Assembly (NCBI GenBank): GCA_031261585.1
Contig: JAISJJ010000034.1
Coordinates: forward strand, 1-44,575
Source of the DNA: Oscillospiraceae bacterium
Lineage (GTDB): Bacteria > Bacillota > Clostridia > Oscillospirales > Oscillospiraceae
Direction: 5' to 3'
DNA: 44,575 nucleotides
Positions within the stretch are counted from its first letter, which is position 1. Each line of letters begins with the position of its first letter. The position numbers were made by a program, and so were the translations under genes. Under the pieces are notes generated by a model. It did no database searches. It saw only the letters and a program-made list of their open reading frames with translations, and was not told the origin of the DNA. Shown piece after piece: positions 27,575 to 34,303 of the stretch.

Positions 27575-27802
27575 CACAGAGTGGCATGGCTGTGAACGGG
27601 AAAATAACGGGTACACGCATTTCAGAGAGGGGCGGGTCGGTGCGACGCCCTGTGCGTAATCGTTTGGTTCGCTCGGGAGCCACCGACGAGAGTCGGCGCG
27701 GTTGCGGCGTTATGCAGCATTGAGAGCGGCGTGTACGCGCCGAATATGGGTGGTACCGCGGAGCTTGCCTTCGTCCCATGTATGGGATGTTGGCAATTTT
27801 TA
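27575..27802 (+). promoter_or_regulatory. T-box leader upstream of pheST
   Basis: CAGAGAG motif at 27622-27628, T-box GGGTGGTACCGCGGAG, then terminator stem TTGCCTTCGTCCCA...TGGGATGTTGGCAA-TTTTT. Confidence 0.88.
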
Positions 27803-27820
27803 TATGCAAGGAGTAACAAA

Positions 27821-28846
27821 ATGCAGGAAAAATTGACCGCGCTGCGCGACGCGGCACTCGGCGAACTGCAAATCGCCGACAGCGCGAAATCCGTTGAGGA
27901 GCTGCGCGTAAAGTACCTCGGCAAGAAGGGCGAACTGACCGCGATTCTCAAACAGATGGGCGGACTGAGCGCGGAGGAACGCCCCGTAATCGGCGCGCTC
28001 GCCAACACCGTGCGCTCGGAGATTGAGAACGCTATCGCGGCGCGTTCCGCCGAGGTCGACGCGATTGAACTTGAACATCGGCTCAAAGCCGAGCGCATCG
28101 ACGTGACGTTGCCGGGGAAAACGCCGCGCGTCGGGCATAAACACCCGATGTCGATTGTACTGGACGAGGCTAAGGACATCTTCATCTCGATGGGGTTCAC
28201 CGTCGCAGAGGGACCCGAGGTCGAGTTGTCCGTGTACGACTTCGACAAGCTGAATATCCCGCCGAATCACACCGTGCGCGAGTGGAGCGACACGTTTTAC
28301 GTCGCAGAGGACGAATCGGTGCATCTGCGGTGCCAGACGTCGCCCGTTCAGGTGCGCGTCATGGAGAAGCAGTCGCCGCCGATACGCATCATCTCACCCG
28401 GGCGCGTGTACCGCAAGGACGAGGTAGACGCGACGCACAGCCCGATGTTCCACCAGATTGAGGGACTTGTCGTCGATCGCGGTATCACGCTCGGAGACCT
28501 GAAAGGTACGCTGAACGCGCTCGTCGGCAAACTGTACGGCACGGGGACGAAAACGCGGTTCCGTCCGCACCATTTCCCGTTCACCGAGCCGTCGTGTGAG
28601 GTCGATGTCGAGTGTTTCGTGTGCGGCGGCAAGGGTTGCCGCGTGTGCAAGGGCGAGGGTTGGATTGAACTGCTCGGGAGCGGTATGGTACACCCGAAAG
28701 TGCTTGCGGGCGTGGGGATTGACCCCGACGAGTACTCGGGCTTCGCGTTCGGTATCGGCGTTGAGCGCATGACGATGCTGCGGTTCGGTATCGACGATAT
28801 GCGCCTGCTGTTCGAGAACGACACGCGGTTCCTGTCGCAGTTTTAG
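27821..28846 (+). CDS. pheS: Phenylalanyl-tRNA synthetase alpha subunit
   Basis: MQEKLTALRDAALGELQIADSAKSVEELRVKYLGKKGELTAILKQMGGL...LRCQTSPVQVRVME. Confidence 0.97.
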   Translation: MQEKLTALRDAALGELQIADSAKSVEELRVKYLGKKGELTAILKQMGGLSAEERPVIGALANTVRSEIENAIAARSAEVDAIELEHRLKAERIDVTLPGKTPRVGHKHPMSIVLDEAKDIFISMGFTVAEGPEVELSVYDFDKLNIPPNHTVREWSDTFYVAEDESVHLRCQTSPVQVRVMEKQSPPIRIISPGRVYRKDEVDATHSPMFHQIEGLVVDRGITLGDLKGTLNALVGKLYGTGTKTRFRPHHFPFTEPSCEVDVECFVCGGKGCRVCKGEGWIELLGSGMVHPKVLAGVGIDPDEYSGFAFGIGVERMTMLRFGIDDMRLLFENDTRFLSQF

Positions 28847-32768: not shown

Positions 32769-33443
32769 TCACGTACAAAACCGATGTTTGCCGATCACGA
32801 GTTTCAGTGGTCGCGACCATATCCACTTGCTCGTCGCCGTAGCGGGGTTGAAGTAGTAGATCGCGCCGCCCGACGGGTCGGTGCCGTTGAGTGCCTCGCG
32901 CGCCGCCTGATACGCCGAATCGGCTATCGGCTGGTTGAACTGCCCGTCGCTGAGACACGAGAACGCACCCGCCTGATATATCACGCCCGACATCGTGTTC
33001 GGGAACGACGGGTGCTTCACGCGGTTCAGCACGACGGCTCCTACCGCGACCTGCCCCTTATATGGTTCGCCGCGAGCCTCGGCGGAGATGAGCCGCGCGA
33101 GCAGGTTCACGTCGTTGGACGAAGTCGTCGCGGTCGAGGCGGTCGATATGCCCATCTTCGAGAGCGTCTGCGGACCCGCGATGCCGTCCGCGGTCAGTCC
33201 GTTCTTGGATTGGAACGCCTTGACCGCTTTCTCGGTACCTGAGCCGAACACGCCGTCGATGCCGCTCGTGTAGTACCCCCAGTTTTTCAGCTTCGTCTGA
33301 ATCTGCTTGACGACATCGCCGCTCGAACCCTTGCGGTAGGACGCCGCCTGCGCCGCGAGTTCGTTCTGCACGCACGTGATTATCACCATGTTCAGCGCAA
33401 AGATCACCGCGAGCATGAGTGTCAGTTTCTTCTTGTTTTTCAA
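32769..33443 (-). CDS. sleB: Spore cortex-lytic enzyme (PG-binding + cell-wall hydrolase domains)
   Basis: YRKGSSGDVVKQIQTKLKNWGYYTSGIDGVFGSGTEKAVKAFQ...LLARLISAEARGEPYKGQVAVGAVVLNRVKHPSFPNTMSGVIYQAGAFSC. Confidence 0.92.
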   Translation of the reverse strand: MKNKKKLTLMLAVIFALNMVIITCVQNELAAQAASYRKGSSGDVVKQIQTKLKNWGYYTSGIDGVFGSGTEKAVKAFQSKNGLTADGIAGPQTLSKMGISTASTATTSSNDVNLLARLISAEARGEPYKGQVAVGAVVLNRVKHPSFPNTMSGVIYQAGAFSCLSDGQFNQPIADSAYQAAREALNGTDPSGGAIYYFNPATATSKWIWSRPLKLVIGKHRFCT

Positions 33444-33546
33444 TGTATTACGCCCCTCTGCAAGGATATGGAACTGTCCATATTCTACGGAGGAGCGTGT
33501 TTGTTTATGTGTGGGAAATTATGTTGCGTGGCTGTTGAGATTTTTC

Positions 33547-33575
33547 TTGCATTACGGCGCGCGACATGATATAAT
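33547..33575 (+). promoter_or_regulatory. Sigma-A-type promoter
   Basis: TTGCAT-17 bp-TATAAT. Confidence 0.7.
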
Positions 33576-33581
33576 CCTCGC

Positions 33582-33784
33582 GTCAGAGGGACGGGGCGGT
33601 TAGCAGTTGGTCACACCGAACGAAAGTGAGGTGAACGCCAATGCGTGTGACGCTACATATCGGACCATACACGGTTACGATTATTGTAAAACGCACGAAC
33701 CGCCACCCCGGCAGGTGACGGTTCGCAGAAATGCGAAAACTGTTCATAGCAAGGGCTAACCGCTAACGGTTTCGCTCCTCTGAC
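33582..33784 (+). ncRNA. Candidate structured RNA with paired ends and an internal 25-aa ORF
   Basis: GTCAGAGG (33582-33589) pairs with CCTCTGAC (33777-33784); CGGTTAGC (33597-33604) pairs with GCTAACCG (33755-33762); hairpin CGAACCG...CGGTTCG 33696-33725. Confidence 0.55.
33641..33718 (+). CDS. Small ORF MRVTLHIGPYTVTIIVKRTNRHPGR
   Basis: ATG 7 nt downstream of GAGGTG; 25 codons; ends in a hairpin. Confidence 0.55.
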   Translation: MRVTLHIGPYTVTIIVKRTNRHPGR

Positions 33785-33798
33785 AACATAGTAACATA

Positions 33799-33836
33799 AC
33801 TTCCGCGATTTGTCAAGATTTCGCGGAAGTTTTTTG
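33799..33836 (+). terminator. Intrinsic terminator
   Basis: ACTTCCGCGA-loop-TCGCGGAAGT-TTTTT. Confidence 0.8.
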
Positions 33837-33841
33837 CGTCC

Positions 33842-34034
33842 TCATTTCTTGATATCCACGCGATTGTCGGGTATGTATTCGATGATGTCTGATATTTCGC
33901 AGTTGAGTAGAGCGCAAAGCGCGTCAAGCGTTGTTAGTCGAGACGGATTCACCGTTTTGCAGGCGGCGCACAGTTGAACCGCTGATGTTGCCTTTTTCGC
34001 GTAGGGTGTATGTGGTCGCGCGGAGACGTTTCAT
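33842..34034 (-). pseudogene. Frameshifted small Xre-family HTH regulator
   Basis: MKRLRATTYTLREKGNISGSTVRRLQNGESVST in one frame continues as LTTLDALCALLNCEISDIIEYIPDNRVDIKK* in another. Confidence 0.75.
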
Positions 34035-34108
34035 CGTTTTCCAAAGCGGGGCTTAGGATATCATTGCTCACCGTCCGAAATACTTTTTTGTGTTTTGCCT
34101 TACTACCC

Positions 34109-34303
34109 ACGGCTACCGCATTTACTTTTCGCAAATACAAAACCCGCGTCATTGCGAGCCGCGCGAAGCAATCCAGAACCCCTGCTGCTCACGTCCCACT
34201 CCCGTAAAACGAGGGCTTGGACGGAGAAACGGAGACTGGATTGCTTCGTGCGCTCGCAATGACGGGGGTTGGCACGCGAGAAAAAAGTAAACGAGGTAGC
34301 CGT
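34109..34303. mobile_element. MITE-like element, TIR ACGGCTACC/GGTAGCCGT, flanked by 12-bp direct repeat GCCTTACTACCC
   Basis: Direct repeats 34097-34108 and 34304-34315; inner core GTCATTGCGAGC...GAAGCAATCCAG...CTGGATTGCTTCG...GCTCGCAATGAC. Confidence 0.75.

Follow-up and report, generated by a model that had tools for sequence, protein, structure and literature searches.

A probable type I toxin-antitoxin cassette with a predicted cationic β-hairpin peptide in gut Clostridia

The locus and its parts

The stretch of DNA analysed here, in the following called the window, comprises 44,575 nucleotides of a contig from an Oscillospiraceae bacterium. The element under study is an intergenic cassette of about 250 bases of this gut bacterium (33545-33840). 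It is flanked by a divergent cell-wall hydrolase gene on the minus strand (32769-33443) and by the frameshifted remnant of an HTH gene, also on the minus strand (~33845-34035). This remnant is an XRE/Cro-like pseudogene (33845-34035) and adjoins the antisense promoter of the element. Further along, a palindrome at 34140-34265 (ATTGCGAGCCGCGCGAAGCAATCC...GGATTGCTTCGTGCGCTCGCAATGACG) resembles a dispersed repeat of the MITE type. Elsewhere in the window, a T-box leader (27583-27781, plus strand; Rfam RF00230, 93.7 bits) lies just 5' of pheS (ORF 27731-28846), which is expected biology.

A sequence-only reading of this DNA had described the cassette as a structured RNA with paired termini and a small ORF, and when the sequence was re-read every feature that it named was found in place (Table 1). 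Its "good promoter" stood in part: the -10 box is perfect and extended by TGA, the -35 box TTGCAT is weak and matches only 3 of 6 consensus positions. Both arm pairings are present, the outer one between GTCAGAGG (33582-33589) and CCTCTGAC (33777-33784), the inner one between CGGTTAGC (33597-33604) and GCTAACCG (33755-33762). The ORF of 25 codons begins with the ATG at 33641, 7 nt after the SD GAGGTG, and its stop codon TGA (33716-33718) lies inside the internal hairpin P5, as had been noted; a terminator-like hairpin with a T-run follows. However, the sequence-only reading overlooked a second promoter, on the minus strand, with TTGACA at 33816-33811 and TACTAT at 33793-33788 separated by a spacer of 17 nt. 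The -35 box of this antisense promoter sits inside the loop of the sense terminator. It scores 10/12, and both window promoters are under the family average, so that the window copy may be less active or decaying.

Table 1. Features of the element by position in the window
Feature	Position	Strand	Remarks
Sense (toxin) promoter TTGCAT-17-TATAAT	33547..33575	+	-35 at 33547-33552, -10 at 33570-33575
5' arm (P1/P2) of the terminal helix, GTCAGAGGGACGGGGCGGTTAGC...	33582..33612	+	fold, covariation
SD hairpin P3	33614..33633	+	SD GAGGTG (33628-33633) in its 3' arm
25-codon ORF MRVTLHIGPYTVTIIVKRTNRHPGR, predicted toxin (cationic β-hairpin)	33641..33718	+	homologs, pN/pS, AF2 model
Stop-codon hairpin P5 (GAACCGCCAC...GTGACGGTTC)	33697..33724	.	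on the minus strand, predicted antisense terminator
Linker from P5 to the 3' arm	33725..33750	.	proposed sense/antisense recognition segment
3' arm of the terminal helix	33753..33784	+	on the minus strand, 5' end of the antisense RNA
Antisense (antitoxin) promoter TTGACA-17-TACTAT, extended -10	33788..33816	-	points into the element
Predicted antisense RNA, ~98 nt, ending at P5 and U-tract	33684..33782	-	predicted from promoter and terminator
Intrinsic terminator of the sense RNA, hairpin and T-run	~33799..33836	+	seen in the sequence

The RNA from 33582 to 33784 folds at -86.1 kcal/mol, compared to -59.6 +/- 4.4 for shuffled sequences (z = -6.0; 0 of 200 shuffles equal or better), where shuffle controls, as in the following, are first-order. 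The predicted antisense RNA also folds better than its controls (z = -3.9), with a terminator hairpin.

Peptide family, distribution and RNA structure

With the peptide as query, 16 of 99 related genomes yielded about 28 homologs, of which the window genome contributes three. Among the matches listed, the pattern of the stop hairpin occurred in at least 120 stretches of GTDB genomes and in 28 of IMG/VR. From these pattern matches and relatives a family set of 124 units with SD, start, peptide and stop was formed, whose members are related, so that sequence counts do not equal independent events; P5 served to ascertain the main set, and many source records are metagenome bins.

The family is found mostly in Oscillospiraceae and Lachnospiraceae, with Oscillibacter, Gemmiger, Evtepia, Dysosmobacter, Pseudoflavonifractor, Lachnospiraceae and Vescimonas as named hosts. 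It occurs patchily, in multiple and often tandem copies; by profile search, 24 of 394 genomes of the order and 5 of 399 of a sample of the phylum contain it, with up to 10 copies each. Vescimonas fastidiosa MM35 carries five copies on NZ_AP023416.1, at least four of them between ordinary chromosomal genes (jag/tatD, nadE/LysR with a tandem pair, HTH/pnp), and the matched stretches hold no annotated feature. The earlier statement that no flanking gene explains the element held: the 84 flanking proteins of homologous loci contain no recurrent neighbour family. An HTH gene was considered as a partner, as it lies beside the window copy, one Vescimonas copy and a few homologs, and was rejected because its enrichment is unconvincing. 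Four copies adjoin phage genes for tail sheath, capsid, antirepressor or integrase (L184, L188, L191, L198), which implies that prophages also carry the β-hairpin class. A search of the INPHARED phages gave no match.

The peptide follows the motif M-R/P-I-T-L-x-H-I-x-x-F/Y-T-V-T-I-x-V-K…NRH(S/P)x(K/R). In the 25-aa class, pN/pS is 0.17 (46 members) and rises above 2 in the shifted frames, and entropy is concentrated at the third codon position (1.09, compared to 0.31 at the first and 0.15 at the second). These patterns indicate that the peptide is translated and under purifying selection. The 25-aa payload is predicted to be a cationic β-hairpin. Its net charge averages +5.1, and in an AF2 model of a 30-aa member, built on an alignment of 80 rows, strands 3-9 and 12-18 form a β-hairpin with a pLDDT of about 91, the tail being of low confidence. 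Instead of a hydrophobic transmembrane α-helix, the 30-aa member is modelled as a β-hairpin, and the net charge of the family is about +5. Foldseek returned no match to this model in the PDB below E = 1, which is expected for a lone hairpin.

Searches of Rfam, Pfam, NCBIfam, PHROGs and PADLOC gave no convincing match to the element. The comparison with Rfam covariance models, proposed by the sequence-only reading, found no family at gathering level and, at lax E, nothing relevant apart from a 21-bit RNAI-like chance match. The Hol_Tox profile PF16935 matched none of 80 β-hairpin peptides, and a literature search on the peptide motifs found no reports. The YrzI profiles (PF09501, TIGR02413) matched 3-4 of the 80 members weakly, with best E values of 0.01-0.03 that are not significant over 80 queries; kinship with YrzI was thus set aside as a lead only. 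This weak likeness falls in the β-hairpin peptide family A2.

In the case of the peptide tail, which reads NRHSxK or NRHPxR, the protein and the RNA are connected. The last stem pair of P5 is T-A where the tail has S…K (or S…Q, L…Q) and C-G where it has P…R (or Q…G, R…G). This pair is complementary in 116 of 116 units, and the form of the tail is set by the RNA. Coding on the minus strand was considered as well and is unsupported, a single open frame being present in 20 of 124 units. Three matches to the peptide family contain one or two in-frame TGA codons (G053 C44, G053 C56, G405 C75); possibly these copies have decayed, or their lineage decodes TGA as an amino acid.

To describe the RNA structure, covariation was evaluated by direct pair counting over 70 diverse homologs. 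Paired cells amounted to 92.3%, compared to 32-49% when the partners were slid, and the covariation score was 0.340 against at most 0.098 in the slid controls, with 240 cells changed on both sides. The conserved helices are the terminal arms P1 and P2, the SD hairpin and the stop hairpin P5. In detail, terminal helices 1-2 are paired in 87-89% of cells and show double-sided changes in 13 of 18 pairs, which bears out the paired termini of the sequence-only reading, and the SD hairpin (helices 3-4) is 89% paired and conserved in A1. The SD has a mean unpaired probability of 0.22 (117 members). Altogether, covariation and folding indicate that the structure of the mRNA, by its SD hairpin and closed ends, limits translation.

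Among the proposals of the sequence-only reading, that of a small-protein gene under structural control was therefore right, given purifying selection on the peptide, an SD held in a hairpin and compensatory pairing of the ends. The terminal helix covaries, the ORF is conserved and Rfam assigns the locus to no family, the three points on which that reading had made itself depend.

Antisense strand, linker and shared chassis

The antisense promoter is conserved in the family. It reaches at least 10/12 in 97% of 121 members and 12/12 in 67% (shuffles 1%) and follows the consensus TTGACA-17-TATAAT; in most members 60-85 nt separate its -10 box from the stop codon. The sense promoter is weaker and reaches at least 10/12 in 62% of 120 members (shuffles 1%). 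On the minus strand P5 was called an intrinsic terminator in 63% of members, compared to 5% of shuffles, and on the plus strand in only 15%, whereas a plus-strand terminator downstream of the element was found in 39% of members, compared to 12% of shuffles. This terminator bias, together with the promoters, predicts an antisense RNA of about 100 nt and a full-length sense RNA with closed ends. We infer from these signals that the minus strand is a transcription unit of its own, which would give a cis antisense RNA that overlaps the toxin mRNA.

The linker between P5 and the 3' arm behaves differently from its surroundings. In the tandem copies of one locus (L101), 5' arm, SD, ORF, P5 and 3' arm are identical, whereas the linkers are 60% identical; the other three tandem pairs have linker identities of 55-65%, and random linkers 49 +/- 9% (95th percentile 62.5%). 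Between genomes, the linker can be kept exactly (L077/L100, L158/L179). It is also among the most exposed segments, with an unpaired value of 0.55 and 0.54 in the two predicted RNAs. As the linker is scrambled between otherwise identical tandem copies, the four tandem pairs suggest that it is the segment by which sense and antisense RNAs recognise each other.

The decay of copies is asymmetric. P5 being required in all classes, 98 units are complete. Units consisting of the antisense half only, in which the 5' half of the toxin is missing and the antisense promoter is kept, were called 23 times (about 20 without the doubtful L177, L090 and L201), and 5 of them lie beside a full unit. A toxin without an antisense promoter of at least 10/12 was called in 5 cases, of which 2 are clear (L120, L165). 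The toxin thus appears to be rarely kept without the antitoxin, while the antitoxin half can persist alone, as expected if a toxin cannot be retained without its antitoxin.

The other two copies of the window genome (G000 C6:34145-34357 and C118:2643-2855) have had their 5' part replaced by sequence that holds a 25-bp repeat with at least 38 occurrences in the genome. They thus seem to have lost the sense promoter and the 5' arm but retain the ORF and the antisense side.

The same arrangement was found with other payloads. Viral contigs were searched with a key made of the antisense promoter and arm, TTGACA-N-TATAAT-N-GGTTAGCC, using neither the peptide nor P5. Among the matches listed, 38 cassettes had, where it was expected, an ORF preceded by an SD. 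All 38 place the stop codon inside a hairpin, 37 have a 5' arm of the GGCGGTT type and 32 a sense promoter of at least 10/12. The payloads of these cassettes are hydrophobic (transmembrane) peptides. Pfam Hol_Tox matches 4 of 31 payloads (best 1.4e-11), and the NCBIfam type I toxin PepG1 matches 2 of 31 weakly (best 5e-4). Relatives of the window genome, its own family included, also carry cassettes with a transmembrane payload, e.g. MSVFEAISLMLAFAVLIIMLINYLDRK. As recognised toxins are alternative payloads of the same chassis, the β-hairpin unit belongs to a toxin-antitoxin chassis. A search of a literature collection for such a shared chassis found no report.

Many transmembrane payloads of this collection (L228-L311 from IMG/VR, L313-L319 from relatives) are without a Pfam or NCBIfam match, e.g. 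MGRKVFRYIMCIIWVLALMICISPKAC and MEYYFLVVLVLIVATGYITSIKK. One cassette (L286) combines a transmembrane payload with the AACCGCCACTC stop hairpin of the β-hairpin class and is possibly a link form between the payload classes.

The modular parts of this chassis are the inverted arms, the SD hairpin, the stop hairpin doubling as antisense terminator and the hypervariable linker. On balance we favour the view that gut Clostridia and their phages share one antisense-guarded RNA chassis on which unrelated toxin payloads are swapped, the β-hairpin being one class, and that the linkers diversify against cross-talk.

Interpretation and comparison with known systems

The element is probably a chromosomal type I toxin-antitoxin cassette with a predicted cationic β-hairpin payload. 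The features that carry this reading are coding selection, RNA structure, convergent promoters, an antisense terminator, linker hypervariability, asymmetric decay and the shared chassis, all of them read from the DNA; from them we infer transcripts, repression, toxicity and a role of the linker, as follows. The sense promoter would give an mRNA of about 250 nt coding for the 25-aa cationic peptide, in which a local hairpin would hold the SD and the long 5'-3' helix would keep the full-length message silent. The usually stronger minus-strand promoter would give an antisense RNA of about 100 nt ending at the stop-codon hairpin and complementary to the 3' arm, linker, stop hairpin and last codons of the mRNA. 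First contact would probably be made through the exposed linker; the resulting duplex would either prevent translation or lead to degradation by RNase III. Because the overlap of the antisense RNA with the mRNA is confined to the final codons and the 3' region and leaves the SD free, repression would have to work by decay or refolding. With a linker that differs between paralogs, each antitoxin would recognise its own mRNA. When antisense synthesis stops, 3' trimming or refolding would open the mRNA to translation, with harm to the cell or its arrest by the peptide as the result.

Several observations speak against a toxin-antitoxin system. Besides the weak window promoters and the overlap that leaves the SD free, the peptide is without the transmembrane helix that membrane type I toxins, where characterised, typically have (PMC8309996), and several β-hairpin copies are intergenic on the chromosome, where addiction has no obvious use. 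An antisense-controlled antimicrobial or signalling peptide that acts outside the cell, its expression merely tuned by the antisense RNA, is the alternative that survives best, and we regard it as unlikely. Cationic amphipathic β-hairpins resemble classical antimicrobial peptides, and the mean charge of +5.1 and the AF2 hairpin agree with this. However, the neighbourhood shows no recurrent gene for a leader, maturation or transport, the chassis is common to intracellular toxins of the Hol_Tox type, and the antisense-only remnants and the near-perfect antisense promoter better fit protection of the producer.

A structured dual-function RNA, in which the sense RNA regulates in trans and encodes the peptide with no functional antisense, would account for a strongly covarying structure with a coding ORF, but leaves the minus-strand promoter, the minus-strand terminator bias and the antisense-half-only units unexplained and is very improbable. 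The sequence-only reading had offered a dual-function small RNA and an unrecognised ncRNA class; the two-strand unit with convergent promoters and the chassis shared with known type I toxin families contradict both. Similarly little weight can be given to a small non-autonomous mobile element with the arms as transposon ends and the peptide as incidental. Units do occur at unrelated sites (337 bp at 94% identity on G000 C6 and C118; a 253-bp unit at 98% in G057), with inverted arms and in tandem arrays, yet selection acts on the codons of the peptide, conserved promoters lie outside the arms, the arms diverge by compensatory change instead of staying identical, and no transposase recurs among the flanking proteins. 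An attenuator or leader peptide for a neighbouring gene, suggested by a small ORF followed by hairpins, can practically be dismissed, as the element in the window lies between a divergent hydrolase gene and an opposite-strand frameshifted HTH remnant, and the flanking genes differ at each locus with no conserved gene downstream.

Turning back to the type I toxin-antitoxin reading, several known systems can be compared. Fst/Ldr systems such as par of pAD1 encode a peptide of about 33 aa between convergent promoters, with a shared hairpin terminator and direct repeats. The β-hairpin unit is alike in the convergent promoters flanking a small peptide and in the shared hairpin terminator, and differs in its long inverted-arm helix in place of direct repeats. 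No Fst or Ldr profile matched the β-hairpin peptides or the chassis payloads.

In the txpA/RatA and bsrG/SR4 systems of B. subtilis, the antitoxins overlap the 3' end of the toxin mRNA, and the toxins are transmembrane helices. To our knowledge, the 3'-overlapping systems of this species have no 5'-3' closing helix of the kind described here. In yonT/SR6 of B. subtilis the antitoxin likewise overlaps the 3' end of the toxin mRNA (PMC5848175); an antisense RNA of about 100 nt in this position is the likeness between these systems and the β-hairpin unit, where it is predicted. The antisense RNA of the β-hairpin unit may lead to mRNA decay or refolding, like 3'-overlapping Bacillus antitoxins such as SR6 (PMC5848175). 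The type I toxins of C. difficile, in contrast to the β-hairpin peptide, have 34-53 aa with an N-terminal transmembrane region and a Lys-rich tail (PMC6563280). Their modules show prophage and CRISPR associations (PMC6563280) that were not seen here.

The aapA/IsoA systems, type I toxin-antitoxin systems of Epsilonproteobacteria (PMC6733600), are alike in mRNA size (aapA3 225 nt), a peptide of about 30 aa and several paralogs per genome. A long-distance pairing of the 5' and 3' ends silences their full-length mRNA, hairpins mask the SD and an antisense RNA is made (PMC6733600), all of which is predicted for the β-hairpin unit as well. Fold and covariation show such a 5'-3' closing helix in the β-hairpin mRNAs. 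In aapA and hok the full-length message is closed and 3' trimming opens the mRNA (PMC6733600), and by analogy with them we propose a closed full-length mRNA here. The β-hairpin unit differs in masking the SD by a local hairpin, in an antisense RNA that covers the 3' half and the stop hairpin, and in its payload, a predicted β-hairpin, where AapA1 is an α-helical membrane peptide (PMC8309996).

In conclusion, the family probably consists of unannotated toxin-antitoxin cassettes of common RNA design with quite different peptides. If this is true, current family libraries miss many such cassettes in a large group of gut bacteria, where a single genome can hold as many as about 10 peptide copies, and payloads are exchanged on a conserved RNA regulator. 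The tandem copies that differ almost solely in the linker are a natural experiment on the specificity of antisense pairs, and the chassis signature is a search key for small toxins without homology to known ones. Identical in design are the Hol_Tox (PF16935) and PepG1 (NF041589) cassettes, with the same antisense promoter, GGTTAGCC arms, linker, stop-codon hairpin and SD hairpin, although their payload is a hydrophobic helix without sequence match to the β-hairpin payload. One review of type I toxins does not report a β-hairpin fold among them; with the present family, a β-hairpin class would be added to a toxin type described as α-helical.
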